NCBI RefSeq assembly: GCF_003342675.1
Contig: NZ_CP031148.1
Location: 248,001 to 312,000 of the forward strand
Direction: 5' to 3'
Source of the DNA: Haloplanus rubicundus
GTDB taxonomy: Archaea; Halobacteriota; Halobacteria; Halobacteriales; Haloferacaceae
DNA length: 64,000 nt
The position numbers were made by a program, and so were the translations under genes. Shown one piece after another: positions 28,617 through 45,737 of this stretch (positions are counted from its first letter, which is position 1; every line of letters starts with the position of its first letter). The notes below the pieces were generated by a model, which made no database searches, was not told the origin of the DNA, and saw nothing but the letters and a program-made list of their open reading frames with translations.

Positions 28617-28721
28617 GCCACGTCGTCGACGGAACGTGAGCGTGACGCGGGTGAGGTCGTCGACTGGAGCGAGACGGTCGACGTTCGTGTGACTCATGGG
28701 GCTACGGTGAGTGGGAGTCGT

Positions 28722-29495
28722 ATGGAAGACGGGGCAAACCGGAAAACGGCTACTGCCGATTCGTTCGGCGCGAGCGCCGACGGGTATCTGAGTAGTACCA
28801 CCCACCGGGAAGGGGCAGACCTCGAACGACTGGCCTCCTGGTGTGACGAGGCGTCGTGGGCACTCGACGTCGCAACGGGCGCCGGCCACACTGCAGGAGC
28901 GCTCGTGGACACGGGCGTCCCGAACGTCGTCGCCGCGGACGCATCCCACTCGATGGTTGCCACGAGCGTCGACTCGTTTCCCGGTGTCGCGGGCGTCGTC
29001 GCCGATGCCGAACGACTCCCGTTCCCAGCGGAGACGTTCGACGCTGTGACGTGTCGAATTGCGGCACATCACTTCCCGGACCCCGAAACGTTCCTCGACG
29101 AAGTGAGCCGAGTGCTTCGTCCGGGGGGCGTCTTCGCGTTCGAGGACAACGTCGTCCCGGACGACGACACGCTCGGTTCGTTCCTCAATCGCGTCGAGGA
29201 GATGCGTGATCCGACGCACGTCGAATCGTACAGGACGTCGACGTGGCACCGGTGGATGGAGAACACCGGATTCGCCGTAGCGGAGACGGCGCATCTCGTG
29301 AAGCGACTGGACGTCCAGGCGTGGATCGACCGAATACACTCACTCGATGCCGAAGAGGGAGCGCGCGTTCGGCGGACTTTGGCGGAGGCTCCCGAACCGG
29401 TACTCGATTTCTTCGACGTCAGGTTCGAGGACGGTGCAGTCGGATCGTTCGGCAGTCCGAAGGCACTGATTCGGGCACCAAAACCCTCCGAATGA
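28722..29495 (+). CDS. Class I SAM-dependent methyltransferase (UbiE-like)
   Basis: 257-residue methyltransferase with ALDVATGAGHTAGAL (motif I), VVAADASHSMV (motif II acidic end), AERLPFPAETFDAVTCRIA and VLRPGGVFAFEDNV, the order of UbiE/MenG-type small-molecule methyltransferases. Substrate unknown. ATG at 28722 (MEDGANRKTATADSFG) is preferred; a GTG at 28689 is possible. Monocistronic by position; it borders the metabolic island that begins with the next regulator. Confidence 0.85.
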   Translation: MEDGANRKTATADSFGASADGYLSSTTHREGADLERLASWCDEASWALDVATGAGHTAGALVDTGVPNVVAADASHSMVATSVDSFPGVAGVVADAERLPFPAETFDAVTCRIAAHHFPDPETFLDEVSRVLRPGGVFAFEDNVVPDDDTLGSFLNRVEEMRDPTHVESYRTSTWHRWMENTGFAVAETAHLVKRLDVQAWIDRIHSLDAEEGARVRRTLAEAPEPVLDFFDVRFEDGAVGSFGSPKALIRAPKPSE

Positions 29496-29600: not shown

Positions 29601-29691
29601 GTCGCGGTAACGTCCGCTCTACGGCCGGTGGTGATCTAGCATTCTCCGAATCGAGTTCCGCACGGTCGCATCCGGGGTCGTGAGGGACCTC

Positions 29692-30360
29692 ATGGAACGG
29701 ATTCCGGACGGCGAACGCATCGAGTTCGAGAACGCGTTCTACGCCGACGAGGGCAACTGGATCGAGTCGCTCCTCGTCACGGCCCGCTCCCCGTTCGATC
29801 CGGAGTCGGTGGTCGGGGAGCTCTCGCGTGTCGAGCTATTTCACCACGAACGGGTGTCGGACAGCTCGGTGGACCACGCGAGTTACCGGCTGACCGTCGT
29901 CGCTCAGGAGCCGTATCCCTTTCTCCTCGGCGTCATCCTGCGTGGAACGGCGATACCCAACCGACTCCAGCTTCACGACAGCTCCTTCGACGGGGTCGTC
30001 ACCGTCAAGGAGTGGGAAACGTTTCGGGCGCTCGCGGAACGGATCGAAGAACAGTTCGGGCAGTTCGAGCTGTTGCGGGTCAATCAGGTCGAAACCACCG
30101 GCGAACCGTTCGGAAGCGGACAACTCGGGCGTGTCCTACGGAACGAGCTCTCGCAGGAACAGCTTACGACGCTGCAAACCGCTCACAGACTCGGCTACTT
30201 CGACGTGCCACGACGGGCATCCGCGGAAGATATCGCCACGGAACTCGGCATCGCGCAGTCGACGCTCAGCGAACGGCTCCGACTCGCGGAGAATCGACTG
30301 TTCGACCTCGTTTTCTCGGGATCGGAGAGCGACCCGGCCGGCGACGCCGACGAGGGATAA
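29692..30360 (+). CDS. HTH_10 (bacterio-opsin activator-like) regulator at the island boundary
   Basis: 222-residue regulator: an N-terminal alpha/beta region starting MERIPDGERIEFENAFY and a C-terminal HTH_10 (LSQEQLTTLQTAHRLGYFDVPR, then DIATELGIAQSTLSERLRLAE). GTG at 29680 is an alternative start. It lies 177 bases before the ABC importer operon in the same direction, so control of that operon is a reasonable inference. It has the same architecture as the gene at 9166 but clearly different sequence. Confidence 0.8.
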   Translation: MERIPDGERIEFENAFYADEGNWIESLLVTARSPFDPESVVGELSRVELFHHERVSDSSVDHASYRLTVVAQEPYPFLLGVILRGTAIPNRLQLHDSSFDGVVTVKEWETFRALAERIEEQFGQFELLRVNQVETTGEPFGSGQLGRVLRNELSQEQLTTLQTAHRLGYFDVPRRASAEDIATELGIAQSTLSERLRLAENRLFDLVFSGSESDPAGDADEG

Positions 30361-30537: not shown

Positions 30538-32496
30538 ATGTCACAGGACAAGCCATACGAGATGGAGCGGGGAACGACCGGGAACGTATCGCGACGACGG
30601 TTCGTGCGGATCGCGGGCGTGGCGGGCGCCGCTGGGCTGGCGGGATGTGGTGGTGAAGGCGGCGACGGCGGTGACGGCGGCGACGGCGGCGACGGCGGCG
30701 ATGGCGGTGGCGGTGACGGCGGCGGAGAATCCATCGAGACGCGGTTCTGGGACGAGTGGCCGGTCGAGACGAAAGGCGTCGACGTCAACGACGAGGCGAT
30801 CCAGTTCGAGTACACCGCCGTCGAGGGACAGTCGGTCCCCGAAGTCGACACCCACTTCGCGCAGGCGGAGACCCCGTGGATGCGCGAGTTCGCGTTGCAG
30901 GTCCAGCAGTCGTTCAACGACATCGGCGTTCCGGTGAACCTGATCACCGTCCAGCCGAGCACCCGGTACGGCGAGTTCTGGCGAGCCGACATCGGGCACC
31001 CGGTGCCGGTGACGATGAACCTCCACGGGCCGGACCCCCAGCGTGGGCTCGACCCGAACCCGTTCCTCATGCGTGCGCACCCGGAGACGGGCGGAAACTA
31101 CTACAACTACAAGAACGACGAGGTCACGGAACTCCTCGACGAACAGGCCCAGACGATCGGCGACGTGGAAGCGCGGGCCGAGATCTGTCAGGAGATCCAG
31201 CGCAAGCTCAGTCAGGACGCCTACCTCATCGCGGCGAACTTCCCGGAGGTCATCACGGTCGCGAACACCGCGAACTGGGAAGGGTACGTCCCGACGCCGG
31301 GCAACGGGACGACCCGGGACTCGTTCATCTGGACGCAGGTGAACCTCCAGCCGCAGGGTGACTCGACGACCTGGGTCAAGGGCGTCACCTCGGGGATGCA
31401 GGGGACGAACCTCCCGTTCTCCAGCGGCGGTCAGGAGGAGAAGCGCCTCCTCAACGTCTACGACGGGCTGTTCGACGCCTCGCCGGAGCTCGAGATCGTC
31501 CCGGCACTGGCGACGAACGCCGACGTCGTCGACGACACGACCGTCGAGATGGACCTCCGTGAGGGCGTCGAGTGGCACGACGGGGAGTCGTTCGGCCCGG
31601 ACGACGTCAAGTTCAGCGTCGAGATGTACAAGGAGAACAACGCGCCCCAGCAGGGGGCGTTCGTCCGGACGATCGACAGCGTCGAGATACTGTCCGAGAG
31701 CGGCGGCGGCCGCGTCAGGTTCAACCTCACCGAGCCCGACGCAGCGTTCCTCACGCAGCGGGTCGTCCGCAGTGCCATCATGCCGAAGCACCGCTGGGAG
31801 GACGTCGACAGTCCGGCCCAGCACAACCCCGACAACCCGGTCGGTACCGGGCCGTTCTCCTTCGTCAACTGGGAACAGGGCTCCGAGCTCAGGCTCGAGA
31901 AACACGAGAACAACTGGATGTGGGACGACGACATCCGCCAGGAACTCCTCGGCGACTACTTCGTCCCCGGCGACGGCATCGACGAGATGGTCCACGTCAA
32001 CGTCGGGAACGTCTCGACGCTCATCGGCGCCATGCAGTCCGGCGATATCGACGCCATCGGGACGACCGTCTCGAACCAGCAGGCCAACCGCGCGTCCAAT
32101 GCGAGCGGCGTCGAAAAACAGACCGCACGGAACTACGTCCCCACGGACGTCCACCTCAGCCACCTCGTCCCGCTGTTCCGCGACAAGACGTTCCGCGTCG
32201 CGTTGAGTCACGCCTTCGACAAGGAAGGGTTCGTCGAGAACACGCTCGGCGGACGCGGTGAGGCGATCCAGGGGCAGAACCTGCTCACCCCGCTGCTGAC
32301 GCCGTTCTACGGCGAGACGGAGCCGTACGAGTACAACGTCGACCGAGCCCGGCAACTGCTCCGCCAGGGCGGGTACACCTTCGACAACAACGACATGCTG
32401 GTCTGGCCCGAGGGCGACGCCTGGGACGCGTTCGCCGAGCGCGTCGAAAACGGACACGCCACCCGCTCAGAGCTCGAACAGTCGGACTTCTCGTAA
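30538..32496 (+). CDS. Family-5 ABC substrate-binding lipoprotein with permuted domain order
   Basis: 652 residues. Tat lipoprotein signal with RRR at 19-21 and lipobox GLAGC ending at Cys37, then a Gly/Asp linker (38-64). Residues ~85-275 match the part normally at the C-terminus of SBP_bac_5 proteins such as DppA: MREFALQVQQSFNDIGVPV, the NYYNYKNDEVTELLDEQAQ stretch and EIQRKLSQDA. Residues ~276-640 match the normal N-terminal and middle parts: NVYDGLFDASPEL, LREGVEWHDG, NPVGTGPF and YNVDRARQLLRQGGY. So the chain looks circularly permuted, ending where the family usually continues. Ligand unknown; annotation as peptide/nickel binding would be by family only. First gene of the importer operon. 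Confidence 0.85.
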   Translation: MSQDKPYEMERGTTGNVSRRRFVRIAGVAGAAGLAGCGGEGGDGGDGGDGGDGGDGGGGDGGGESIETRFWDEWPVETKGVDVNDEAIQFEYTAVEGQSVPEVDTHFAQAETPWMREFALQVQQSFNDIGVPVNLITVQPSTRYGEFWRADIGHPVPVTMNLHGPDPQRGLDPNPFLMRAHPETGGNYYNYKNDEVTELLDEQAQTIGDVEARAEICQEIQRKLSQDAYLIAANFPEVITVANTANWEGYVPTPGNGTTRDSFIWTQVNLQPQGDSTTWVKGVTSGMQGTNLPFSSGGQEEKRLLNVYDGLFDASPELEIVPALATNADVVDDTTVEMDLREGVEWHDGESFGPDDVKFSVEMYKENNAPQQGAFVRTIDSVEILSESGGGRVRFNLTEPDAAFLTQRVVRSAIMPKHRWEDVDSPAQHNPDNPVGTGPFSFVNWEQGSELRLEKHENNWMWDDDIRQELLGDYFVPGDGIDEMVHVNVGNVSTLIGAMQSGDIDAIGTTVSNQQANRASNASGVEKQTARNYVPTDVHLSHLVPLFRDKTFRVALSHAFDKEGFVENTLGGRGEAIQGQNLLTPLLTPFYGETEPYEYNVDRARQLLRQGGYTFDNNDMLVWPEGDAWDAFAERVENGHATRSELEQSDFS

Positions 32497-32516: not shown

Positions 32517-33500
32517 ATGAGCTTTCGACGCTTCCTGTTAAAACGAACGGTGATCGCGGCGTTGCTGACGCTGATAGCGGTCAGTGTCATCTTCGTCACC
32601 CTGCGGCTGTTACCCTCGGACCCGTTCAGCGGACTCGTCGCATCCGGATCGCTCACGGCGGAGCAAGTGGAACGGGTTCGCGCGATGTACGGGCTGGACG
32701 AACCGATCTACGTCCAGTACCTGAAGTACGTTCAGAACCTGTTCACGTTCCAGTTCGGAATCTCGCTCACCCAGCAGCGACCGGTCGGGGAGATCATCAT
32801 TCCGGCGCTGATGAACACCATGGTGCTGCTGTTGCCCGCACTCGTCGTGACGGCAATCGTCAGCTCGGTCGCCGGCATGTACGCGGGGTGGAACCGCGGG
32901 TCGTGGTTCGAGCAGTCGAGCATCGTCGCGACCACGGTTTTCCGCGCGGTCCCGATCTTCGTGACCGGGATCTTCCTGCTCATCATCTTCTCGTACGGGT
33001 TGGGCTGGCTGCCGGCGTTCGGGATGCGCAGTCCGCTGGCGAATCCGGACGGCTACCTGGAGACGTATCTCTCCGTCGACTTCCTGAAACACTACATCCT
33101 CCCGTTCACGGCGACGGTGTTGTTCTACAGCGGCGACTTCCTGATGCTCGCCCGCAACTCCGTCGTCGAGCGGAAAGGCTCGGAGTTCCTCATGCTCCAC
33201 CGTGCCAAGGGTCTGTCGGACATGGAGCAACTCGGTCGCGCCGGGCGGAATTCGTTGCTGCCGCTGGTGACGTACTTCGCACTCCGGACGGGGATGCTCT
33301 TCCAGGGAGTCATCACGCTGGAAGTCGTCTTCGCGTGGCCGGGCATCGGTCGCGCACTGGTCCAGGCGATCCTCAACCAGGACTACCCGACGGTGCAGGC
33401 GGCCGTGTTCATCATGGCACTTGCGGTCATCGTGATGAACCTCACGGCCGACGTGGCGTACGCGAAACTGGACCCGACCGTCGAGGCAGGTGACGTCTGA
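32517..33500 (+). CDS. ABC transporter permease (DppB/OppB type)
   Basis: 327-residue inner-membrane subunit with six hydrophobic segments. It has the N-terminal RTVIAALLTLIAVSVIFVTLR helix and GPxD-like motif LPSDPFSG typical of DppB, and the cytoplasmic coupling loop LMLHRAKGLSDMEQLGRAGRN before LLPLVTYFALRTG. It starts 20 bases after the binding protein and shares one base with the next permease (TGATG). Forms the channel with the DppC-type subunit. Confidence 0.9.
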   Translation: MSFRRFLLKRTVIAALLTLIAVSVIFVTLRLLPSDPFSGLVASGSLTAEQVERVRAMYGLDEPIYVQYLKYVQNLFTFQFGISLTQQRPVGEIIIPALMNTMVLLLPALVVTAIVSSVAGMYAGWNRGSWFEQSSIVATTVFRAVPIFVTGIFLLIIFSYGLGWLPAFGMRSPLANPDGYLETYLSVDFLKHYILPFTATVLFYSGDFLMLARNSVVERKGSEFLMLHRAKGLSDMEQLGRAGRNSLLPLVTYFALRTGMLFQGVITLEVVFAWPGIGRALVQAILNQDYPTVQAAVFIMALAVIVMNLTADVAYAKLDPTVEAGDV

Positions 33501-34420
33501 TGGCGGGGTCCACACTCGATAGCGACACCGCGAAAGATCGACTCCGCTCGGAGTTCGGACGGGCGAAACGCACGCTCAGCTACGTCCTCAAGGACAACGC
33601 GGCGAAGGTCGGCTTCGTGACCCTCGTCGGGTTCGTCTTCCTCGGCCTCTTCGGGCCGTACATCGCCCCGTACCACCCCATCGAGGACACGCTCCGACAG
33701 GGCGGGTCGATGATGCGGCTCCAGGACCCCGGCGGGAAGGCCCTGTTGGGGACGACGTCGTTCGGGAAGGACGTCCTGAGCCAGTTCCTCGCCGGTGCGC
33801 GGCCGACGCTCATCGTCGGCCTGTTCGGCGGCGTCGGAACCGGCGTGCTGGGATTCCTCGTCGGCCTCACGAGCGGCTACTTCGGCGGCCGCGTCGACGA
33901 ACTCCTGATGCGGCTGACCGACCTGACGTTCGCGCTCCCGTTCCTGCCGATGGCGCTCGTGATCCTCTCGTTCGTGACCCCGAGCGTCTGGCTGATCACC
34001 GCCGTCTTGGTCGTCTTCCTCTGGAAGATGCCCGCGCGGGTCATCCGGTCGGAGGTGATGACCGTCAAGGAGCGGACGTTCGTCAAGTCCGCCCGAGCGA
34101 GGGGTGCCGGTCACATGCGGACGATGTTCCTGCACGTGGCCCCGAACGTCTTGGGGATCGGCTTCCTCTACACCGCCTACGCCGTCGGCTGGTCGATCGT
34201 CGCCGGGGCGTCGCTGGCGTTTCTCGGCTTCGGCGATCCGACGACCACTTCGTGGGGACGGATGCTCCAGCAGGTGTTCCGCTCGGGCGCCATCCGCGTC
34301 GCGTGGTGGTGGGTGCTCCCACCCGCAATCGGTATCGGCGCCGTCACGACGTCCGTCTTCCTGGTCGGCCGGGCGTTCGAGGAGATAGTCAATCCCGACC
34401 TACAAACGGAGCAAGAATGA
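33500..34420 (+). CDS. ABC transporter permease (DppC/OppC type)
   Basis: 306 residues with six membrane segments. The periplasmic-side IAPYHPIEDTL and FGKDVLSQFLAGARPTLIVG are DppC hallmarks, followed by the coupling loop RTFVKSARARGAGHMRTMFLH. It ends with ATGA overlap into the ATPase gene, so the operon is tightly coupled. The C-terminal tail EEIVNPDLQTEQE replaces the common RDALDPR ending. Confidence 0.9.
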   Translation: MAGSTLDSDTAKDRLRSEFGRAKRTLSYVLKDNAAKVGFVTLVGFVFLGLFGPYIAPYHPIEDTLRQGGSMMRLQDPGGKALLGTTSFGKDVLSQFLAGARPTLIVGLFGGVGTGVLGFLVGLTSGYFGGRVDELLMRLTDLTFALPFLPMALVILSFVTPSVWLITAVLVVFLWKMPARVIRSEVMTVKERTFVKSARARGAGHMRTMFLHVAPNVLGIGFLYTAYAVGWSIVAGASLAFLGFGDPTTTSWGRMLQQVFRSGAIRVAWWWVLPPAIGIGAVTTSVFLVGRAFEEIVNPDLQTEQE

Positions 34421-36522
34421 GTCTACTCGAAGTCGACGACGTGAAAATCACGTATCGGATGCCGGACAAGGACATACACGCCGTCAACAACGTCTCCTTC
34501 TCTATCGAAGAGGGGGACAACTACGGACTCGTCGGCGAATCCGGCTCCGGCAAGTCGACGCTCGCAAAGGCCGTCCTCGGACTGCTCGACGACAACGGCG
34601 AGATCCGTTCGGGGAGCATTCGCTTCGACGGCCGGGAGTTGATCGACCTCTCGGAACGGGATTGGCGGTCGGTCCGCTGGGAGGAAATCTCGTACATCCC
34701 ACAGAGCGCGATGGACTCACTCGACCCGGTGATGACGGTCGGCGCACAGATCCGACAGGCCATCCGCAAACACAGGAACGTCTCGAAAGCGACCGCGAAC
34801 GAGCGCGTCGCCGAGGTGTTCGAGATGGTCGGGCTCGATCCCGCACGAACGGGCGACTATCCCCACCAGTTCTCGGGGGGGATGCGCCAGCGCGTCACCA
34901 TCGCGATGGCGCTCGCACTGGACCCCGACCTCATCATCGCGGACGAGCCGACGACCGGTCTCGACGTGATCGTCCAGGACAAGATCATCGACAAACTGCT
35001 GGAGATTCAGGAGAAGACGGACAGTTCGCTCCTGCTCATCACCCACGACGTGGGGGTCGTCGCCGAGACGTGCGACGAGGTGTCGGTCCTGTACGGTGGG
35101 AAGGTGATGGAACAGGGCGACACCGACCAGGTGTTCAGGGCGCCGACGAACCCCTACTCGATGGGGCTGAAAAACGCCTTCCCGGAGGTCGACGAATTCG
35201 ACGAGCAGGCCATCTCGATCCCCGGATCGCTTCCGGACCTCACCGGCGAGCCGACCGGCTGTGTGTTCCGGAACCGGTGTCCGTTCGCGACCGAGGAGTG
35301 CGAACAGAGCCATCCGCCGCTGGTCGAGACCGACGGCCAGCTATCGGCCTGTCACTACACGGACCGGGCCGACGAGATGCGGGCAAACGCCGACGACCCC
35401 ACGACGTGGGGTATAGAGCCGCGGGACCGGAGCGCGAGGAGGGACGAAACCGGCGACGTCATCCTCGAAACCCGCGGCCTCGAGAAGTGGTTCAAGCAGC
35501 CACAGGGGATCCTCGACGACCTGCGAGGGAACGATCCCGACTACGTCAAGGCGGTAAACGACGTGAATCTCACGGTTCACGAGAGCGAAATCGTCGGCGT
35601 CGCCGGCGAGTCGGGCTGCGGGAAGTCGACCCTCGCGGAGGTGATCGCCGCGCTCCAGGACCGGACTGGCGGCGACATATTCGTCGACGGCACGTCGGTC
35701 GACGAGTTGCTCGGGAAGAGTGCCAAGAAGTTCCGCTCCCAGGTACAGTTCATCTTCCAGGACCCGTTCGACTCGCTCAACCCACGGCAGCGGGTTCGTG
35801 CGGCGGTGTCCGAACCGTTGAAGATCCAGGGGTTCGACGCCGAGACCATCGACAGACGGGTCAGACAGACCGTCGCCGACGTCGGCCTCGAACCGGTCGA
35901 CAAGTACCTCGACAAACTGCCGGCCCAGCTCTCGGGCGGGGAGCGCCAGCGCGTCGCCATCGCGCAGGCGCTGGTGCTCGAACCGCGGCTGCTCATCTGT
36001 GACGAGCCGGCGTCGATGCTCGACGTTTCGCTGAAGGCCAACATCCTCAACATCCTGCGGGAGATGGCCGACGAGCGTGACATCGGCATCGTCTACATCT
36101 CGCACGACCTCGCGAGCCTCACGCAGATCGCCGACCGCCTCGCGGTGATGTATCTCGGTCGGATCGCCGAACTCGGGGACACCGAGGACGTCGTCCAGTC
36201 GCCCAAACACCCGTATACGGCGTCGCTCCTGGCCGCGTCACCCAGGACCGACCCCGACATCGACCGTCAGCGGGTGCTGTTGCCCGGCGAGCCGCCGAAC
36301 CCAGTCAACCTGCCGAACGGCTGTAACTTCGCGCCCCGCTGTCCGAAGGCGACCGAGGAGTGTCGCGGCGAGGAGCCGGACCGGTCCGCGTTCGCCGACG
36401 ACGGCCACGAAGCGGCCTGCTACTTCCCGGTCGAGGACGTCGAGACCGAACTCCTGGAACGCTACGCCGCCAAACAGGAGGACGACGGAGCGAGAGCGCT
36501 CGGCGACGAGATGACCCTGTAG
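34417..36522 (+). CDS. Fused ABC ATPase (DppD-DppF in one chain)
   Basis: 701-residue double ATPase for the importer. First nucleotide-binding domain: Walker A GESGSGKST (40-48), signature FSGGMRQRV, Walker B LIIADEP; its oligopeptide C-terminal extension has CVFRNRCPFATEEC. Second domain: Walker A GESGCGKST (397-405), signature LSGGERQRV, Walker B LLICDEP; extension CNFAPRCPKATEEC. The two cysteine-rich ends are where Opp/Dpp ATPases hold iron-sulfur clusters. One chain thus supplies both ATP sites. An upstream in-frame extension lies inside dppC and is rejected. Confidence 0.92.
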   Translation: MSLLEVDDVKITYRMPDKDIHAVNNVSFSIEEGDNYGLVGESGSGKSTLAKAVLGLLDDNGEIRSGSIRFDGRELIDLSERDWRSVRWEEISYIPQSAMDSLDPVMTVGAQIRQAIRKHRNVSKATANERVAEVFEMVGLDPARTGDYPHQFSGGMRQRVTIAMALALDPDLIIADEPTTGLDVIVQDKIIDKLLEIQEKTDSSLLLITHDVGVVAETCDEVSVLYGGKVMEQGDTDQVFRAPTNPYSMGLKNAFPEVDEFDEQAISIPGSLPDLTGEPTGCVFRNRCPFATEECEQSHPPLVETDGQLSACHYTDRADEMRANADDPTTWGIEPRDRSARRDETGDVILETRGLEKWFKQPQGILDDLRGNDPDYVKAVNDVNLTVHESEIVGVAGESGCGKSTLAEVIAALQDRTGGDIFVDGTSVDELLGKSAKKFRSQVQFIFQDPFDSLNPRQRVRAAVSEPLKIQGFDAETIDRRVRQTVADVGLEPVDKYLDKLPAQLSGGERQRVAIAQALVLEPRLLICDEPASMLDVSLKANILNILREMADERDIGIVYISHDLASLTQIADRLAVMYLGRIAELGDTEDVVQSPKHPYTASLLAASPRTDPDIDRQRVLLPGEPPNPVNLPNGCNFAPRCPKATEECRGEEPDRSAFADDGHEAACYFPVEDVETELLERYAAKQEDDGARALGDEMTL

Positions 36523-36627: not shown

Positions 36628-38775
36628 TCAGTCGCGCGTTCGGACGAGAGCGTCGACCGCCACCGGCCCGTCCGCCGCGATCACGACCGGGTTGAGATCG
36701 ATTTCGGCGACGGCGTCCACCGACGCAGCCAAGTCACCGACGTTCACCAGGAGGTCGACGACGTCCTCGACGGGGAGCGCGTCGCCGCCGCGACGGTCGG
36801 TCAGCAGATCCGCGAGCGCGGTCTCCTCGACGGCGCGCCGTGCGTCGGCCGGCGCGAACGGCGGGACGAGCGTCGCGCTCTCGTCCAGCGCCTCCACGAG
36901 GACGCCGCCGGGACCGACGGTGACGACCGAGTCGAACACGTCCCCGGGCGCGACCCCGAGGATGGCCTCGACGCCGTCGCCGACCATCGGCTGGACCAGT
37001 ACGCCGGCCACGTCCGACTCGTCGACGTGTGCCAACGCCGCCTCCCGCACGTCTCGGTAGGCCTCGCGGACCGCCTGGGGGGTGTCGAGGCCGAGCGCGA
37101 CGGCCCCGACGTCCGTCCGATGGGGGAGCGCCGGCGAATCGATCTTCAGGACGACCGGATAGCCGACGGCCTCGGCGGCCGCGACGGCCGCCTCCGGATC
37201 GGTCGCGACGCGCGTCTCGACGACGGGGATGTCGAAGGCGTCCAAGAGCGGCTCCGTCTCCCGCCACTCGAGGACCCGTCCTCGGGGGAGGTCGAGGTCG
37301 GGCACGTCGAGGGCAGCCGCGAGTTCGCGTCTGGACGGCCGATCGGCCACGCGGTCGCGGTCCGCGACGTACTCGGTCGTCGACGCGACCGCGTCCAGAC
37401 AGCGTCCCGGGTCCTCGTACACCGGCACGGACTCCCGGAGGCGCGCGTACGGCGGCGTCACGGTCGGGTCGTCCGGCTCCTTCCGCCCAGTCCAGAGCAC
37501 GTACACCGGATCGTCGGCGGCCGTGACGATCCGCTCCAGATCGGCGGCGATGGTTTCGGCACGGTCGTCGACCCCCGGGAGCCCGATCGCGAAGACGTAC
37601 GCGTCGAACGCGTCGTCGGACAGGAGTGCGTCGGCGATCGCCGGCAGTACCTCGGCGCCGTACCCGCGGATGTCGGCGGGGTTGTTGAATCCGCCGTAGG
37701 TCAGCAGTTCGTCGATGTCCAGCAGCGCCCGTTCGGTCGCCCCGTCGATGTCGGGGAGCGCGAGGTCCCGCTCGGCCGCCATGTCGGCGAGGAGGCTCGC
37801 GAGGCCGCCGCTGGTCGAGGCGATACAGAGACGGTCGCCGTCGACCGTGTCGTAGGCAGTGTGGGCGTTCGCCCGCGAGAGCAGGTCCGGAATGTCCGGC
37901 ACCCGCTGGACGCCGGATTGATCGAAGGCCGCCCGCCAGGCGTCGTCGCTCCCGGTGAGGGATCCGGTGTGGGACAGCGTCGCCGCCTCGGCGAGGTCCG
38001 ACTGCCCGATCTTGACCGTCAGCACCGGCGTGCCGTCGCGGGTCGCCCGCTCCGCGACGCGCATGAACCGTTCGGGGTCTTCGATCCCTTCGACGTAGGT
38101 GCAGATGACGTCGACGGTCTCCCGTTCGGCGAGGTAGGCGACGTAGTCGGTCAGCGTGAGATCCGCCTCGTTGCCGGTCGAGACGATGTGACTGAAGTGA
38201 AGATCGCGGTCCGCCGCCCGCTCGAAGAAGGTGGTAAACGCCAAGGCGCCGGACTGGCTGACGAGGCCGATCCGGCCGGGCTGGGGCTGGCGCGAACAGG
38301 TCGACGTGAGCGTCGCGCCACGGGCGGCCATCACGCCGATGCAGTTCGGCCCGACGATACGAATATCCGTGTCGGCGGCCGTCTCGGCGAGTCGTGACGC
38401 CAGGCGCTGCCCTTCCTCGTCGGCCTCCGAGAAGCCGGCCGTGAGGACGAGCGCGACCGGTACGCCCCGCTCGCCCGCCGTGGTCACCACGTCGACGACG
38501 TACTCTCGCGGGACGCTCACGACGGCCAGGTCGACCGTTTCGGGCAGGTCGTCGATGTCGTCGTAACACTCACGACCCCAGACCTCGTCCCGGCCGGGAT
38601 TGACGGGGTAGAGCGTCCCCTCGAAGCCGTAGTCGAGGAGATTGGCCACGAGGTTCCCCGAGTAGAACGAGTCTGGACTGGCGCCGACGACGGCGACCGA
38701 GTCCGGGTCGAACAGCGGATCGAGTTCCGGGATCGCGGGATCGGCGCTCGATAGCGACGGGTCGATGGGTTCCAT
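36628..38775 (-). CDS. ADP-forming acyl-CoA synthetase (acetate/acyl-CoA ligase, ACD family)
   Basis: Single-chain 715-residue ligase, alpha and beta parts fused: CoA-binding domain (about 18-150, VAVVGASPDSFYSGN), ligase-CoA domains (about 165-460) with the phospho-accepting His269 in SHTGSLTGSD, and a C-terminal ATP-grasp domain (about 490-710, FDIPVVETRVA, YPVVLKID, VEAILG). The family converts acyl-CoA + ADP + Pi to acid + CoA + ATP, reversibly. Here it sits beside a CitE-like lyase and opposite an acid importer, so activation of an imported di- or hydroxyacid is possible, as is energy recovery from an acyl-CoA. Its 3' end converges with the importer operon. Confidence 0.88.
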   Translation of the reverse strand: MEPIDPSLSSADPAIPELDPLFDPDSVAVVGASPDSFYSGNLVANLLDYGFEGTLYPVNPGRDEVWGRECYDDIDDLPETVDLAVVSVPREYVVDVVTTAGERGVPVALVLTAGFSEADEEGQRLASRLAETAADTDIRIVGPNCIGVMAARGATLTSTCSRQPQPGRIGLVSQSGALAFTTFFERAADRDLHFSHIVSTGNEADLTLTDYVAYLAERETVDVICTYVEGIEDPERFMRVAERATRDGTPVLTVKIGQSDLAEAATLSHTGSLTGSDDAWRAAFDQSGVQRVPDIPDLLSRANAHTAYDTVDGDRLCIASTSGGLASLLADMAAERDLALPDIDGATERALLDIDELLTYGGFNNPADIRGYGAEVLPAIADALLSDDAFDAYVFAIGLPGVDDRAETIAADLERIVTAADDPVYVLWTGRKEPDDPTVTPPYARLRESVPVYEDPGRCLDAVASTTEYVADRDRVADRPSRRELAAALDVPDLDLPRGRVLEWRETEPLLDAFDIPVVETRVATDPEAAVAAAEAVGYPVVLKIDSPALPHRTDVGAVALGLDTPQAVREAYRDVREAALAHVDESDVAGVLVQPMVGDGVEAILGVAPGDVFDSVVTVGPGGVLVEALDESATLVPPFAPADARRAVEETALADLLTDRRGGDALPVEDVVDLLVNVGDLAASVDAVAEIDLNPVVIAADGPVAVDALVRTRD

Positions 38776-38907
38776 GCGAGCCGCTACTCCGTAGACGGGC
38801 CTGTACCTGCCCCCGAAGCGACGCCATAGTAATCGTCCTTTATTACGGTCGAACGGCGCCCCGCGAGGGATGGGCTCCGAGGCACCGGACGGTGGCTTCC
38901 GACGCGG

Positions 38908-39762
38908 CTACCGAATCCCGGCGGCCTCCGCCCGTCGGACGATCGTTCGGGCGCGTTCGACCAGCGGTGGGTCTATCATCTGGTCGTCGACGGTGAACAC
39001 CCCGGCGTCCGCTTCGCTCGCCCGTTCCTGACCGGCGAGCACCTTCTCGGCCCACTCGAGTTCGTCACTCGCCGGCGTGAACGCCTCGTTGATGACGGGA
39101 ATCTGGTTCGGGTGGATCGCGAGTTTGCCGTCGAACCCGAGTTCGACGACGAACTCGGTCTGTTCGCGGAGCCCCGCGACGTCCTCGATGTCGGTGTGGA
39201 CGGTGTCGAACGCATCGACGCCGGCCGCGGCCGCGGCGACGACCGTTCGCTGGCGAGCGTACAGCGACTCGGTCTTGTCGTCGGTCACGGTCGCGCCGAT
39301 GTCGGCGGTGAAATCCTGGTCGCCGTAGGCGACGGCCGTGACTCCCGGTGCGGCCGCGATGTCGTCGGCCGAGAGGACGCCCGCCGCCGTCTCGATCAAC
39401 GGGACGATACCGACGTCCGACGCCCCGAGATCCGCGAGTTGGTCGTGGAGCGCCTCGACCGGGTCGGCGTCGTTCACTTTCGGCAGGAGGACGCTATCCG
39501 GCGGCGTCGCCACGTCGCCGACGACGGCGTCGACGTCCGCCCGGCCGGACAGGTCGTACGGGTTGACGCGGACGGCGACGTTCGGGACCGGGTCGTCGAG
39601 CGCATCGAGCGTCGACCGCACGGTTCGTCGTGCCCCCTCCTTCGAGGCGGGTGCAACCGCGTCCTCGAGGTCGAAGATGACCGTATCGGCGGCCGTCTCG
39701 ACCGCTTTCTCCAGCATACGGCGATCGTCACCGGGGGAGTACAGTAGCGAGCGCTGAACCAT
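38908..39762 (-). CDS. CitE-like CoA-ester lyase (HpcH/HpaI family)
   Basis: 284-residue TIM-barrel lyase of the CitE/malyl-CoA/citramalyl-CoA lyase group. The start MVQRSLLYSPGDDRRML is characteristic; FDLEDAVAP carries the acidic active-site residues, VAVRVNP the substrate Arg, VPLIETAAGVL and AYGDQDFTADIG the Mg ligands Glu and Asp. It cleaves a 3-hydroxyacyl-CoA to acetyl- or propionyl-CoA plus a 2-oxoacid. Proximity to the ADP-forming CoA ligase (same strand, 132 bases downstream) suggests they act in sequence. Substrate (malyl-, citramalyl- or methylmalyl-CoA) cannot be read from sequence. Confidence 0.87.
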   Translation of the reverse strand: MVQRSLLYSPGDDRRMLEKAVETAADTVIFDLEDAVAPASKEGARRTVRSTLDALDDPVPNVAVRVNPYDLSGRADVDAVVGDVATPPDSVLLPKVNDADPVEALHDQLADLGASDVGIVPLIETAAGVLSADDIAAAPGVTAVAYGDQDFTADIGATVTDDKTESLYARQRTVVAAAAAGVDAFDTVHTDIEDVAGLREQTEFVVELGFDGKLAIHPNQIPVINEAFTPASDELEWAEKVLAGQERASEADAGVFTVDDQMIDPPLVERARTIVRRAEAAGIR

Positions 39763-39901
39763 GCTGTCGACACGGACCGTCGGTGGAAAAGTTCGGTGGC
39801 TGGTCACGAGCGGCGGTCGGTCTCGCAGTCCCACGGATGCCCGTCGACGACTGCTCGCCGGAACGGCCCGGTGAGAAGCCGTGACGCCTTCCGAGAGACC
39901 C

Positions 39902-42061
39902 CTAGTCGTCGTCCGCCGATTCCCCGACCCGTGCTGGCCCGTCGGGGTCCGGACGCTCCGCCGGCCGGAAACACGCAGCCGAGTGGTCCCGTGCCGTCCA
40001 CACGTCGAGGTCGGGTTCGTCTTCCAGACACGCCGCGTCCGCTTTCGGACAGCGGGGGGCGAACCGACAGCCCGGAAACTCCCCCTCCGCGTCGGCCGGC
40101 TTCCCGTCGAGGGTGACGCGCTCGCGGCTCCCTCGCGGGTCCGTCTCGGGGACCGCCGAGAGCAATGCCTCGGTGTAGGGGTGTTGCGGGCGGTTCACGA
40201 TGTGCTCGGTGCGCCCCCGCTCGACGAACCGTCCGAGATACATGATAGATAGTCGGTCGGCGATTCGCGTGAGGCTCGCGATGTCGTGAGAGATGTACAG
40301 GACGCCGATCCCTCGGGTGTTCGCCAGCGTCCGAAGCAGGTTGAGCACCTCCGCTTGAAGCGAGATATCGAGCATCGACGCCGGCTCGTCACAGATGAGG
40401 AAGTCGGGGTCGATGACGAGCGCGCGGGCGATGGCGACGCGCTGTCGCTGGCCCCCCGAGAGCTCGTTCGGATACTTCTCCAGATAGTGCTCGGCGGGCG
40501 CCATCCCGACCTGTTCGAGCGTCTCCCGGACGGCCGCGGCTTTCTCGTCGGTCCGGTACCCGTGGATCGTCAGCGGCTCCTTGACCAACTGTTCGACCGT
40601 CATCCGCGGGTTCAGCGAATCGTACGGGTTCTGGAAGATGATCTGCAGTTTCTGCCGGAAGGATTGGAGGTTACCTTCCCGGTAGTGCTCGTACGAACGG
40701 CCGTCGAGCCGGAACCCGCCGTCGGTCGGATCTTCCAGAAGTGCGAGCGTCTGGCCCAGCGTCGTCTTTCCGCACCCCGACTCGCCGACGACGCCGTGGA
40801 TCTCCCCGCGCGCGACGGACAGCGAGACGCCGTCGACGGCGCGGACGTGGGACCCGTCGTCGTTGAGCATCTCGGTGAGGATCTCGCCGCGCTGTTCGTA
40901 CCACCGGCGAATACTGTTCGAGAACCCGGTCACGGTGGGCGAAACCCCACCGAAGGGGAGCCACCCCAGCAGCGACCCCGAGCGCTCGTACCACTTGCAC
41001 AGGTCGTCGACTTCGAGCAGGACTTCGCCGTCGTCGGACCGGGACCCGCCCGTACTCCCGCCCCACGTGGAGGCGTCCTCGGCGTCGCGGCGCATCCGCG
41101 CCGCTCGATCCGCGTTGTGACACGCGACCCGCTGGTTTCGATACGGGAGCGTCTCCAACGCCGGTTCGGTCGTTGCACACTCCTCGCCCGCGAACGGGCA
41201 CCGGGGTTCGAAGACGCAGGCCGTCGGCTCCGAGTCGAGGCTCGGCGGTTCCCCCGGAATCGAGACGAGGTCACCGTCGCCATCTTCGAGCGCCCCGAAC
41301 GCGCTCTTCAGCCCGATCGTGTACGGGTTCGTGGGATTGAGCAGGAGGTTCTCGACGCGCCCTTGCTCCATCACCTTCCCGCCGTACATCACCGACATCT
41401 CGTCGCACGTCTCGGCGATGACGCTCAGGTCGTGGGTGATGAGCAGGAGCGAGCTATCGGTCTCCTCCTGAATCTGGAGGATGTTGTCGATGATCTTGTC
41501 CTGGACGATCACGTCGAGACCGGTCGTCGGCTCGTCCGCGACGATGAGTTTCGGCTCGAGCGCGAGCGCCATCGCGATGACGACGCGCTGGCGCATCCCC
41601 CCCGAGAACTGGTGGGGGTAGTCGTCGACACGGTCGGGATCGAGCCCGACCGTCCCGAACAGTTCACGAGCTCGCCGACTGGCGTTGCGCTCGGAGAGTT
41701 CCCGGTGTGTCTGGATCGCCTGCTCGATCTGTGCGCCGACCGTCATGACCGGATCGAGCGCGTCGATGGCCGTCTGTGGGATGAACGCGATTTCCTCCCA
41801 GAGCAGGTCCTGTCGCTCCGACGGCGTCAGCGAGCGGAGGTCCCGCCCCTCGAACTCGATCACGCCCGATTCGATCTCCGCGTGGTCCGGCAGCAGTCCC
41901 AGAATCGCCTTCGCCGTCGTCGACTTTCCCGAGGCCGACTCGCCGGAGAGCGCGTAGTTGACCCCGTCCTCGATGCTGAACGAGACGCCGTTCACGCTGT
42001 GGAGCGGTCCCTCCCGCGTGTCGTACCGCACCACGAGGTCGTCGACGTCGAGAAGCGTCAT
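39902..42061 (-). CDS. Second fused DppD-DppF ABC ATPase, without adjacent partners
   Basis: 719-residue double ATPase, same layout as the one at 34417 but clearly diverged. Walker A GESASGKST (40-48) and GESGCGKTT in the second half; signatures FSGGMRQRV and LSGGQRQRV; two cysteine-rich C-extensions (CVFEPRCPFAGEEC and CRFAPRCPKADAAC). Between the halves is an added stretch (about 380-430) with SLLGWLPFGGV. No permease or binding protein is next to it in this window, which is unusual. It may serve permeases elsewhere, or be what remains of a second importer operon. Confidence 0.9.
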   Translation of the reverse strand: MTLLDVDDLVVRYDTREGPLHSVNGVSFSIEDGVNYALSGESASGKSTTAKAILGLLPDHAEIESGVIEFEGRDLRSLTPSERQDLLWEEIAFIPQTAIDALDPVMTVGAQIEQAIQTHRELSERNASRRARELFGTVGLDPDRVDDYPHQFSGGMRQRVVIAMALALEPKLIVADEPTTGLDVIVQDKIIDNILQIQEETDSSLLLITHDLSVIAETCDEMSVMYGGKVMEQGRVENLLLNPTNPYTIGLKSAFGALEDGDGDLVSIPGEPPSLDSEPTACVFEPRCPFAGEECATTEPALETLPYRNQRVACHNADRAARMRRDAEDASTWGGSTGGSRSDDGEVLLEVDDLCKWYERSGSLLGWLPFGGVSPTVTGFSNSIRRWYEQRGEILTEMLNDDGSHVRAVDGVSLSVARGEIHGVVGESGCGKTTLGQTLALLEDPTDGGFRLDGRSYEHYREGNLQSFRQKLQIIFQNPYDSLNPRMTVEQLVKEPLTIHGYRTDEKAAAVRETLEQVGMAPAEHYLEKYPNELSGGQRQRVAIARALVIDPDFLICDEPASMLDISLQAEVLNLLRTLANTRGIGVLYISHDIASLTRIADRLSIMYLGRFVERGRTEHIVNRPQHPYTEALLSAVPETDPRGSRERVTLDGKPADAEGEFPGCRFAPRCPKADAACLEDEPDLDVWTARDHSAACFRPAERPDPDGPARVGESADDD

Positions 42062-42297
42062 CTCCGTACGCTGTTGGCCGGGTCGCGAGCGGCGGTCACG
42101 CCCAGACGGGGCGTCTCACTCACCAGCAACGGAATCCCGCGTTCACGTCGGTCCATGCTGCTCCCGCCTAACATGCTGACTGTTATGAACCCTCGGATCG
42201 CACTGGCAACCGACATGACGGGACGCCAGTCGTCTCGTCCGCCCTCGGACACCCAGTCGAACGAGCCACACGTCGTACGGCGTCGGTGCGGAGCCAC
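42058..42297 (-). other. Short ORF overlapping the second ATPase start; possible permease remnant
   Basis: A 79-codon frame whose TGA overlaps the ATPase ATG (ATGA), exactly the junction seen between dppC and the ATPase in the other operon. Its end, ITVSMLGGSSMDRRERGI to AARDPANSVRR, loosely recalls a permease C-terminus, but I cannot align it with confidence. Otherwise the 272-base gap to the MFS gene holds nothing I can support. It could simply be chance. Confidence 0.25.
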
Positions 42298-42333
42298 GAC
42301 GCCGACCGGATTCGAAGGCCGAGAGCACCCGTG

Positions 42334-43560
42334 ATGACGGCGGACCGTCGGTCGCTATCCGGGCGGATCGGCCACTTCGACGCGATCGTCCTCACCTCCG
42401 CCCTGTGGTTTCTGACCAAGTTCGTTCGCTTCGCGTTCCCGCCACTGTTCGAACAGCTCGCGAGCGTGTACGACATCTCGGCGGCGGTCCTGGGGACGGC
42501 GTTCAGCGGCCTCCTCCTGGTCTACGCGGCCATGCAGTTCCCGTCGGGCCTGCTCGCGGATCGGTTCAGTTCCGTGGCCGTCATCGGGGCGGGAGCGTCG
42601 CTCGCGGCCGTCGGCGCCTTCGCGCTGGCCGTCGACAGTCCGCTGGTCGTCCTCGTCGGTGCCATGCTGACTATCGGCGCCGGCACCGGTCCGGTCAAGA
42701 CCGTCGGCATCCGGGTGCTCTCGCGAACGTATCCGGAGCGGACCGGCCGCGCGCTCGGCGTGTTCGACACCATCGGGACGTTCGGCGGTGCGGCGGCGCC
42801 CGCCACGGTGGTCCTGTTCACGAGCCTGCCCGGAGTGGTGGGTGCCAGTTGGCGGACGACGTTCCTCGTCGCCGGCATCGTCGGCGTCGTCGTCACCGTC
42901 GCCTTCGTCGCCCGGGTTCCCCGGCGGCTTCCGGACGCCGAGACGAACGAGACGGACGCCGGAACGGCCGTCCCGATCCGCGAGTACGGGGCGCTGTTCC
43001 GGGAGTGGCGATTCTCCGTGTTCGTCCTCGTTACGACCCTCTTTTCCTTTTCGTACAACGCCACGCTCGCCTTCCTTCCGCTGTACTTCACGCGGGAGGT
43101 CGGACTCGACTCGACCACGGCGAGTCTGCTGTTCAGTGCGCTGTTCGCGGTGAGCGTCGTCCAGTTACTCACCGGCGAGATCAGCGACCGGACGGGGACA
43201 CTCCCGCTCGTCGCACTCACGGTCGGGCTGGCGACGACGGGACTGGGGTCGATACTCCTCCTGACCGACGTCGCCGGCCCCCTCGTGTTGGGCGGGGCCG
43301 TCGTCTGTCTCGGGCTCGGCGCGCACGGCTACCGCCCGGTTCGCGGCGCGTACCTGATGTCGGTCATCCCCACGTCCGTCGCCGGTGGGAGCCTCGGCGC
43401 GGTACGGACGATACAGATGGTCGCCGGGGCGGCCTCCCCCGCCCTCGTCGGCGTGCTCTCCGAGACGGCCGGGCTGCGGCCGGCGTTCGGGATCCTCACG
43501 GCGGCGTTGCTCGTCGCGACCGGTCTCTCCCTGCTCCTCTGGCTGTTCGATTCGTCCTGA
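42334..43560 (+). CDS. MFS transporter
   Basis: 408-residue major-facilitator protein with twelve hydrophobic segments in two halves of six and a charged central loop (about 195-220). The first half has the GLLADRFSS motif between segments 2 and 3 and the second the related GEISDRTG. Substrate unknown; its place before the lyase and PrpF genes suggests organic acid exchange. ATG at 42334 is preferred over GTG at 42331. Confidence 0.85.
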   Translation: MTADRRSLSGRIGHFDAIVLTSALWFLTKFVRFAFPPLFEQLASVYDISAAVLGTAFSGLLLVYAAMQFPSGLLADRFSSVAVIGAGASLAAVGAFALAVDSPLVVLVGAMLTIGAGTGPVKTVGIRVLSRTYPERTGRALGVFDTIGTFGGAAAPATVVLFTSLPGVVGASWRTTFLVAGIVGVVVTVAFVARVPRRLPDAETNETDAGTAVPIREYGALFREWRFSVFVLVTTLFSFSYNATLAFLPLYFTREVGLDSTTASLLFSALFAVSVVQLLTGEISDRTGTLPLVALTVGLATTGLGSILLLTDVAGPLVLGGAVVCLGLGAHGYRPVRGAYLMSVIPTSVAGGSLGAVRTIQMVAGAASPALVGVLSETAGLRPAFGILTAALLVATGLSLLLWLFDSS

Positions 43561-43581
43561 CGCGGCCCGCCAGTCGGCCGA

Positions 43582-43590
43582 TACTTTATA
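43582..43590 (+). promoter_or_regulatory. TATA box of the isocitrate-lyase-family gene
   Basis: ACTTTATAG centred ~27 bases before ATG 43613; predicts leaderless mRNA starting the lyase-prpF pair. Confidence 0.55.
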
Positions 43591-43612
43591 GTTCGGACGA
43601 CATCTGCCGCGT

Positions 43613-44512
43613 ATGTACGGGCGTCAGCGGTTGGCAGAGATGATCGCCGAACCGGAAATCACGGTCGTTCCGGGGGTTTACGACGGTATCAGTGCGCGAC
43701 TCGTCGAGCAACAGGGCTTCGAGACGGGGTTCCTCTCCGGCGCCGGCGTCTCCAACAGCCGCCTCGCACAGCCGGACGTCGGCTTCCTCACGTTGCCGGA
43801 CGTCGCCGACCAGTCGCGGGAGATCGCGGACGCGGTCGATATCCCGATCTGGGTCGACGCCGACACCGGCTACGGAAACGCGGTGAACGTCCATCGCACG
43901 GTCCGAAAGCTGGCGAACGCGGGCGCAGCGGCCGTCATGATCGAGGATCAGGAGTGGCCGAAGCGGTGTGGCCACATGGCGGGGAAGTCAGTCGTTCCGT
44001 TCGACGAGGCCGTCACGAAGATCGAAGCGGCGGCGGACGCACGCGACGAACACGCGCCGAACATGCTCCTGAAAGCGCGGACCGACGCGACCGAGCCGGA
44101 CGGACTCGACGAGGCGATCAGGCGGTTGAACGCGTTCGCCGACGCCGGCGCCGACGTCGTCTTCGCGGACGCGCTCCGCTCGGCGGATGACATCCGTCGC
44201 GTCGCGGCCGACGTCGACGCCCCGCTGTCGGTCAACATGGGGTTCGGGGTTCGAAGCCGCCCGACGACGCCGCTGATCCCGGCCGCGCGTCTCGAGGAGA
44301 TGGGGGTCGCGGTCGTCATCTATCCGCGGCTCATCACCGCTGCGGCGACCGCAGGAATGAAACGTGGGCTCGAGGAACTCGCGACGGCCGTCGAGACGCG
44401 CGAGGAGTACGAGGCACCGGACGCCGTCGTCGACTGGGACACCTACACGGACCTGATCGGGAAACCGGCCGTCGACGACCTCGAAGGGCGGTTCCGGGCG
44501 GACTCCGGCTGA
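43613..44512 (+). CDS. Isocitrate lyase/PEP mutase family lyase (PrpB- or dimethylmalate-lyase-like)
   Basis: 299-residue TIM barrel of the ICL/PEPM superfamily. PGVYDGISARLVEQ and SGAGVSNSRLA start the active site; WVDADTGYGN holds Mg-binding Asp residues; KRCGHMAGK is the Cys-bearing loop of true lyases (isocitrate, 2-methylisocitrate and 2,3-dimethylmalate lyases) and separates it from PEP mutase. It would split a branched malate or isocitrate into pyruvate or glyoxylate plus an acid. It is followed after 73 bases by a PrpF-family isomerase, as in dimethylmalate or methylcitrate routes. Confidence 0.85.
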   Translation: MYGRQRLAEMIAEPEITVVPGVYDGISARLVEQQGFETGFLSGAGVSNSRLAQPDVGFLTLPDVADQSREIADAVDIPIWVDADTGYGNAVNVHRTVRKLANAGAAAVMIEDQEWPKRCGHMAGKSVVPFDEAVTKIEAAADARDEHAPNMLLKARTDATEPDGLDEAIRRLNAFADAGADVVFADALRSADDIRRVAADVDAPLSVNMGFGVRSRPTTPLIPAARLEEMGVAVVIYPRLITAAATAGMKRGLEELATAVETREEYEAPDAVVDWDTYTDLIGKPAVDDLEGRFRADSG

Positions 44513-44585
44513 CCTCGCGAGCGGCCGGGGCGGGACCCCCCGATCCGGCACAACACCTACGCCGGGGGCACACGAACCCGCCGGC

Positions 44586-45737
44586 ATGGTCGATCAATCG
44601 GTGCAGGGATCCGTTCGGGGCACCCTGCTCCGCGGCGGAACGAGCCGTGGGCTGTACGTGACACCCGACCGGTTGCCGCCGGCCGGCGAGCGGCGGGACG
44701 AGATTCTCGTCGAGCTGTTCGGAACGCCCGACCCGCTACAGATCGACGGCATCGGCGGCGGGAACTCCCACACGAGCAAGGTGATGATCGTCGACGAGTC
44801 CGACCGTCCGGACGCCGATATCGAGTACACGTTCGGCCAAGTCGGGATCGAGAACGCGACCGTCGACTGGTCGGGCAACTGCGGGAATCTGACGAGCGGC
44901 GTCGGCGTCTTCGCGCTGTTGTCGGGGCTCGCCAGCGCCGAGAGCCCGGAGACGGAGCTGTGCCTCTACAATACGAACACGGACACGTACGTCGATCAGG
45001 TCGTTCCGATCACCGACGGAGAACCGGCGGTCCACGGCGAGTACCACGTCGACGGAATTCCGGGGACGGGTGCGCGGATCGATTCGTACTTCCGGGACCC
45101 GGGTGGCTCCGTCACCGGCCAGCTACTGCCGACCGGCGAACGCCGCGAGACGGTCACGGTCGACGGCGAGGACTACCCCGTCTCCATCGTCGACGTCGCG
45201 AACCCCAACGTGTTCCTCAGGGCGCGCGATCTCGGGCTCGACGGCACGGAGCTTCCGGACGAGTTGGACGACCCGGACCTGCTGGACCGACTCGAACTGA
45301 TACGGGGTGCAGCGTGCGAGCGACTCGGTCTCGTCGACGATAGACGCAATGCGGTCGACGAGCGACCGGCGATCCCACAGATCGCGCTGGTGTCCGACCC
45401 GCAGTCGTTCGGGACCGTCTCGGGCGGACGGGTGGACGACGACGACATCGACATCACGTCCCGTATCGTGACGACGGGGACGCCCCACCACTCCTACGCG
45501 ACGACCGGCGCGATGTGCCTCGCCGCGGCGACCCGACTCGACGGGACGATCCCGGCCGAGTTCGTCCGCGGGACCGACGGACCGGACGTGACCATCGGCC
45601 ACCCGAAGGGAACGATCACCATCGGCGTCGAGACGGCGACGCGCGCCGGCGAGACGACGGTCGAGCGTGTCCGCGTCGGTCGTACGGCCCGATTACTCGT
45701 CGACGGCAGACTGTTCTATCGCCACGTTCCCGGATGA
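44586..45737 (+). CDS. PrpF-family acid isomerase (methylaconitate/methylitaconate isomerase-like)
   Basis: 383-residue protein with two DapF-like halves. LLRGGTSRGLYV, DGIGGGNSHTSKVMIVD (with the catalytic Lys of the SHTSKV motif) and GNCGNLTSGVGVFAL in the first half, ITSRIVTTGTPHHSYATTGAMCLA in the second, are PrpF signatures. The family includes 2-methylaconitate cis-trans isomerase, 3-methylitaconate delta-isomerase and 4-oxalomesaconate tautomerase. No AcnD-type hydratase is next to it here, so the methylcitrate cycle is only one option. Likely isomerises an unsaturated branched acid before hydration and cleavage by the neighbouring lyase. Confidence 0.85.
   Translation: MVDQSVQGSVRGTLLRGGTSRGLYVTPDRLPPAGERRDEILVELFGTPDPLQIDGIGGGNSHTSKVMIVDESDRPDADIEYTFGQVGIENATVDWSGNCGNLTSGVGVFALLSGLASAESPETELCLYNTNTDTYVDQVVPITDGEPAVHGEYHVDGIPGTGARIDSYFRDPGGSVTGQLLPTGERRETVTVDGEDYPVSIVDVANPNVFLRARDLGLDGTELPDELDDPDLLDRLELIRGAACERLGLVDDRRNAVDERPAIPQIALVSDPQSFGTVSGGRVDDDDIDITSRIVTTGTPHHSYATTGAMCLAAATRLDGTIPAEFVRGTDGPDVTIGHPKGTITIGVETATRAGETTVERVRVGRTARLLVDGRLFYRHVPG

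Follow-up and report, generated by a model that had tools for sequence, protein, structure and literature searches.

Very likely natural circular permutation of a family-5 substrate-binding protein in a haloarchaeal ABC importer, and its likely recurrence within the family

The substrate-binding protein (SBP) encoded at 30538–32496 on the + strand of the window, the whole 64,000-nucleotide stretch of DNA that was analysed, is very likely (probability about 0.95) a natural circular permutant of a family-5 (SBP_bac_5, DppA/OppA/NikA-type) SBP. The segment corresponding to the classical C-terminal third (the C-part) precedes that corresponding to the classical N-terminal and central parts (the N-part), and the protein is therefore described as a permuted variant, an SBP_bac_5 homologue rather than a canonical member. 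Trees and breakpoints indicate that permutation in family-5 SBPs is likely to have had five or more separate origins.

The open reading frame is intact at these coordinates and encodes 652 residues; all of the following features lie on the + strand. A Tat-type signal (SRRRFVRIAG) and a lipobox (LAGC, Cys37) occupy residues 1–37 (30538–30648). They were recognized in the sequence, with a weak Pfam TAT_signal match at residues 16–36 and with columns 5–37 of a profile of normal-order proteins falling on residues 14–52. The twin-arginine motif and lipobox are thus present as sequence, and export itself is inferred. A Gly/Asp-rich linker, also recognized in the sequence, spans residues 38–64 (30649–30729). 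The moved block, equivalent to the classical C-terminal third, comprises residues ~85–262 (30790–31323) and is supported by phmmer, a rotation scan, structure matching and the profile, columns 376–508 of which lie at residues 113–254. The junction of the old C-terminus and old N-terminus was located by profile positions and dN/dS at residues ~263–271 (31324–31350), where the window protein has no remnant signal peptide. The classical N-terminal and central parts, assigned by PF00496, the profile and VIA-align, fill residues 272–618 (31351–32391; profile columns 37–361). They are followed, past the new breakpoint, by a conserved C-terminal tail of 34 residues (619–652; 32392–32493), defined by the profile and dN/dS, which the close subfamily shares and which many distant members lack or have only in short form. 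A 638-codon antisense open frame (30541–32457, − strand) spans nearly the whole gene. Long antisense frames over this and many neighbouring genes are ascribed to the high G+C content and are not taken as evidence of genes.

PF00496 matched residues 319–620 on profile positions 1–285 of 368 (E = 1e-50; 173 bits compared with a cut-off of 32.4), and the best stretch stopped there. The best matches of the NCBIfam models (Opp4A, NikA, DppA and others) were also in the N-part. A phmmer comparison with PDB 5isu returned two stretches in swapped order, query residues 317–615 pairing with chain residues 55–338 (i-E = 1.5e-21) and query residues 116–241 with chain residues 354–473 (i-E = 0.0027). When a profile of normal haloarchaeal paralogues only was used, the order signal, C-part, N-part was observed in every relative examined.

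A rotation scan was carried out using a 523-column profile of normal-order proteins from which nine normal proteins had been held out, each sequence being rotated in five-residue steps and rescored. In its native order the window protein scored 240.3 bits and matched only partially, over columns 37–361. Started at residue 265, it scored 293.4 bits as one domain over columns 38–498. Six other permuted proteins behaved like the window protein. For all nine held-out normal proteins the native order was either the best or within 4 bits of the best rotation, no rotation raising their scores by more than about 3 bits. The full set of fold parts (profile columns about 37–508) is present in the window protein, with only the canonical N-to-C order absent. 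The criterion for a circular permutant, that rotation restores a collinear full-length match and that unpermuted homologues exist, is met. Judged as a single domain, the C-part is matched only weakly, with the phmmer i-E of 0.0027 quoted above and a Z of about 6 in the structure match.

Prediction of residues 64–652 by AlphaFold2 together with 22 permuted relatives gave one well-ordered fold (pLDDT 88, pTM 0.87). VIA-align placed model residues 206–566 sequentially on residues 18–358 of 1xoc (Z = 23.6, 331 aligned), and the same model residues likewise matched the N-terminal two thirds of about 50 other SBPs. As only these residues were covered, the C-part was folded alone. The isolated prediction was poor (pLDDT 66, pTM 0.52), and most of the same residues scored far higher in the whole model. 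Being poorly folded alone and ordered in the whole protein, the C-part appears to need the N-part. Most of the best structure matches of the C-part alone fell on the final third of cluster C SBPs (5isu 355–523, 1xoc 341–520 and 1ola 350–517); these matches were weak (Z = 5.5–5.9) and were used only for the chain range. Foldseek superposition of the whole model on SBPs gave a TM of about 0.4–0.46 and an rmsd of mostly 6–11 Å, and was not counted as evidence, since a poor result is expected when a sequential aligner meets a permutation. The PDB chains searched yielded no experimentally determined structure of a permuted member. None of the best-matching chains was collinear with the permuted profile, their best stretches beginning no earlier than about profile position 183. 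The placement of the C-part within the fold therefore rests on AlphaFold2 and sequence.

An initial annotation, made without database searches, had proposed a circular permutation with the domain order C–N. This held in the profile, phmmer and rotation analyses: as it expected, the SBP_bac_5-type match falls into two partial stretches whose order is reversed, and no single collinear full-length match was seen in the native order. Its structural expectation also held, as far as a predicted model allows, with the two parts forming a single confident fold rather than two half domains. Its boundaries (~85–275 and ~276–640) are refined to ~85–262 for the moved block and 272–618 for the N-part. Its statement that the protein ends where a normal one would continue is likewise refined, since the conserved tail comes after the N-part. 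The description of an intact lipoprotein in a normal operon was upheld by the intact reading frame, the lipobox and the permease and ATPase genes.

The same arrangement could in principle reflect a fusion, in which an N-terminal helper domain merely resembling the C-terminal third is joined to a truncated SBP without its third part. The individually weak C-part match, and the fact that Pfam is confident for the N-part only, would fit such a fusion. Against it, rotation yields one continuous full-length match with a gain of ~53 bits that was not seen in the normal controls, and the C-part is ordered in the whole model although poorly folded alone. Fusion is further disfavoured because the moved block is 38–51% identical to the unpermuted C-terminal part in events B, C and E described below, and is hence the same block. 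A fusion is accordingly judged very unlikely. An assembly or gene-calling artefact is all but excluded, since the frame is uninterrupted in many genomes, complete replicons among them, the operon is conserved and selection is purifying. Circular permutation remains the preferred reading.

Both parts and the junction are under purifying selection. Relative to five orthologues, dN/dS was 0.11–0.23 for the C-part, 0.16–0.24 for the N-part, 0.02–0.12 for the junction (residues 263–290) and 0.07–0.15 for the conserved C-terminal tail. Directly upstream of the SBP gene is that of an HTH_10 (bacterio-opsin activator type) regulator (29680–30360, +), and this neighbour is retained in 12 of the 14 orthologous loci examined. 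Domain matches and the orthologous loci identify a DppB-type permease (32517–33500, +), a DppC-type permease (33500–34420, +; OppC_N, BPD_transp_1) and a fused dual OppD/OppF-type ATPase (34417–36522, +; two ABC_tran and two oligo_HPY domains). All 14 loci contain the transporter genes, and the order regulator, SBP, DppB, DppC, fused OppDF ATPase is kept in most of them. A SAM-dependent methyltransferase-like gene lies upstream (28689–29495, +), and L324 and L325 have homologues of 50–55% identity close to their permuted importer.

On the other side of the operon, a gene for an NDP-forming acyl-CoA synthetase (36628–38775, −) adjoins or lies near the transporter in 11 of the 14 loci, and one for an HpcH/CitE-type lyase (38908–39834, −) is near it in several. 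These two neighbours are the only grounds for proposing an organic acid or a conjugate of one as the imported solute. The assignment is tentative and held with low confidence, as it rests on neighbouring genes without binding or transport data. The wider neighbourhood (36628–45737) holds, besides the synthetase and the lyase, genes for an MFS carrier, a PEP mutase/isocitrate-lyase-type enzyme and a PrpF isomerase, and might serve the breakdown of a di- or tricarboxylic acid. It also contains a second fused dual oligopeptide-type ABC ATPase (39902–42061, −) without adjoining permeases or SBP. L324 and L326 have relatives of this ATPase (76% identity) close to their permuted importer, and the ATPase here may be a remnant or spare one of a lost sister importer.

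The permutation represented by the window protein is designated event A. In a set of 293 Halobacteriales genomes, about 50 carried a full-length collinear orthologue (41–94% identity) and many more carried collinear permuted proteins near 30% identity. The window's genome encodes a second permuted SBP, L006, which was a long-branch outlier in the first tree and grouped with event A when 14 sampled relatives were added. A tblastn search of plasmids revealed permuted SBPs in Maritalea, Nitratireductor, Neorhizobium, Ketogulonicigenium, Microvirga and Roseomonas; where annotated, their operons are of the usual SBP–permease–ATPase kind. The Maritalea protein, WP_117397031.1, is a mesophilic relative. 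A genome scan added Bosea, Burkholderiaceae, Desulfobacteraceae, Trueperaceae, Brevibacillus and Desulfurococcaceae, so that the groups recorded outside haloarchaea are Alphaproteobacteria, Burkholderiaceae, Desulfobacterota, Deinococcota, Brevibacillus and Desulfurococcaceae. The scan was seeded with a three-sequence alignment (a seven-sequence one being without a conserved stretch), and the spread outside haloarchaea is at least that given here. The initial annotation, which had asked how many haloarchaeal importers share the architecture, understated the case: it occurs in many importers, haloarchaeal and beyond, with more than one origin.

Classification of 203 proteins gave 100 permuted and 103 normal. 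The N-part ended at profile columns 360–367 in 99 of the 100 permuted proteins, which places it in the loop following the helix that terminates in the ..LL..AGY motif. The event A clade was moderately supported (SH-aLRT 97 with 30 rows and 90 in a larger tree; 81/86 on the N-part alone). Two deep archaeal permuted members, L158 and L166, fell outside event A in the trees. L158 (Thermoprotei MAG, ORF from about base 2893, +) is a permuted SBP with a C-terminal transmembrane anchor and is a candidate for a separate permutation. In L166 (Candidatus Geothermarchaeota, ORF from about base 90, +), the permuted SBP is followed by Ig-like repeats, identified by eye, and by a C-terminal transmembrane anchor, so that tethering is at the new C-terminus and not at the N-terminus.

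Event A might itself comprise several events at one breakpoint, with the C-terminally anchored L158 and L166 permuted separately. L166 groups with the unpermuted L199 (SH-aLRT 98), and an AU test rejected a single clade of A and L158 (p = 0.004). On the other hand, the rows of L158 and L166 are long and compositionally odd, L166 was not rejected from A (p = 0.08), the breakpoint of both proteins equals that of A, and the grouping was picked after the tree had been seen. The balance tips slightly against several events, and A is treated as one.

Event B comprises 22 haloarchaeal proteins. One of these, L067, shares 43–46% identity in both parts, swapped in order, with the unpermuted L002 of the window's own genome. 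The B breakpoint lies about one helix earlier than that of A, the N-part ending mostly at columns 332–344 and the C-part starting at 346–364. B as a single event was not rejected (p = 0.145). Event C (L273 and L303–L307) has a breakpoint at about columns 334/345. Compared with the unpermuted L309 and L317, relatives of L003, its proteins are 46–53% identical in the N-part and 38–45% in the C-part; the unpermuted L003 is also encoded in the window's genome. For L306 the permutation was not resolved by the rotation scan and rests on blastp. Event D (L263 and L266) is closest to the unpermuted L245 and has its breakpoint after the helix at about column 360, nearly as in A. Event E (L308, L313 and L314, all haloarchaeal) involves relatives of the C group in which only the last ~80 residues have moved to the front. 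Its breakpoint is ~100 columns further on, at about columns 440/454, and blastp against the unpermuted L309 and L310 gave two blocks in swapped order with 41–51% identity.

In the N-part tree, {D, L245, B and the unpermuted B relatives} was supported at 100/99 and {C, E and their unpermuted relatives} at 100/100, and well-supported branches force at least five changes between the normal and permuted states. Monophyly of the permuted proteins as a whole was tested as well, and rejected.

One ancestral permutation, with the unpermuted kin of B, C, D and E being reversions, would account for the location of all breakpoints in the same chain half (lobe 2 by homology) and for the nearly common site of A and D. 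Nevertheless, the breakpoints differ, lying at about column 360 in A and D, 333–345 in B and C, and 440 in E. Reversion would have to recreate the standard termini exactly, and all unpermuted members have them. Moreover, forcing A and B into one clade cost 248 log-likelihood units and was rejected (AU p = 2e-74), and B, C, D and E nest with unpermuted proteins with good support. A single ancestral permutation is thus very unlikely, and separate events remain the favoured interpretation.

Prevalence was estimated from 25 haloarchaeal genomes, in which PF00496 gave 158 matches, secondary stretches included. The 40 early-stopping candidates proved to be permuted (35), normal (3) or not assigned (2). 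With the two in the window's genome, this amounts to 37 permuted family-5 SBPs, or at least 23%, distributed over 18 of the 21 sampled genomes that have family-5 proteins.

The window protein is proposed to act as the membrane-anchored SBP of a Dpp/Opp-type ABC importer. The termini of family-5 SBPs meet in lobe 1, and the anchored N-terminus of normal proteins enters lobe 1, as established for OppA and DppA. In the permuted protein the old termini would be joined by a short linker. The initial annotation likewise argued that permutation is feasible because both termini lie in one lobe. The new termini would lie in a lobe 2 loop just past one helix, so that the lipid anchor is inferred to enter through lobe 2 instead of lobe 1. 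The binding cleft and the permease-docking faces would be kept. As the same parts are supplied, cleft binding and docking to DppB/DppC are expected to be as in ordinary family-5 proteins; no binding or transport data bear on this inference.

The permuted state of event A is interpreted as old and as having spread between archaea and bacteria, with B, C, D and E as later, separate permutations within subfamilies of haloarchaea in which unpermuted proteins persist. Permutants are generally explained by tandem duplication and fusion of a gene with subsequent loss of the outer halves. The likely, though inferred, genetic route here is a tandem duplication of an SBP gene, in-frame fusion of the copies and loss of the outer halves, with a signal-plus-linker module presumably joined to the new start point. 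No intermediate of this route was found among the proteins studied. An advantage linked to tethering is conceivable and would agree with the haloarchaeal lipoproteins and with L158 and L166, which are anchored C-terminally. It does not suit the permuted members from Alphaproteobacteria, which have no recognizable lipobox, and tethering alone is therefore not the whole reason.

Compared with cluster C SBPs (PF00496: OppA, DppA, AppA 1xoc, CtaP 5isu and NikZ 4oet), the window protein is homologous in both parts, is alike in its two-lobed fold by sequence and prediction, has the same DppBC/OppDF-type partners and carries a lipoprotein anchor like other haloarchaeal SBPs. It differs in having the order C–N rather than N–C and a chain that is predicted to begin and end in a lobe 2 loop, and in that PF00496 and the NCBIfam models align mainly to the N-part of permuted proteins.

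A natural circular permutation has been described in a Type I SBP, Treponema pallidum Tp0684 (TpMglB-2), for which the designation 'Type Ic / cluster Bc' was proposed (PMC4990184). That protein was also spotted because sequence searches failed on its C-terminal part, it occurs in several lineages, and its authors raised tethering as a possible, untested driver (PMC4990184). It belongs to a different family, with a Type I, cluster B sugar-binding fold, in which the permuted strands lie in the N lobe and create a fourth hinge crossing, and it is found in spirochaetes and Gram-positives (PMC4990184). The window protein is not of the TpMglB-2 type, as its family, sequence and best structure matches are all cluster C family-5. 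Moreover, the TpMglB-2 type was described as one subclass, whereas the family-5 permutants represent at least five events. The Type I and Type II periplasmic-binding-protein folds are themselves related by a topology change. That is an ancient fold-level difference, whereas the family-5 permutation occurs within one family that has unpermuted close relatives. No report of permutation in family-5 SBPs was found in the open-access literature searched. Within that literature, the fold family and the kind of event are known, and the permutation of family-5 SBPs is unreported; it is widespread and, in all likelihood, recurrent.

Reports of natural circular permutation usually describe something rare that happened once in a family. 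The family-5 SBPs, which belong to one of the commonest importer families, have probably been permuted repeatedly, with breakpoints concentrated in one region. A bolder reading, also considered likely, is that permutation is recurrent and retained in the family-5 fold: at least five and perhaps seven events, most with breakpoints around one lobe 2 helix, moved the tether from lobe 1 to lobe 2 in about a quarter of the haloarchaeal family and in several bacterial and archaeal phyla. Family models cover only part of such proteins, mainly the N-part (PF00496, NCBIfam). Since unpermuted relatives exist at about 40–50% identity, some in the same genome, the effects of permutation are directly testable in matched pairs. 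Its influence on ligand affinity, closure and permease docking, the position of the tether as a driver and the origin of the permuted genes can now be addressed.
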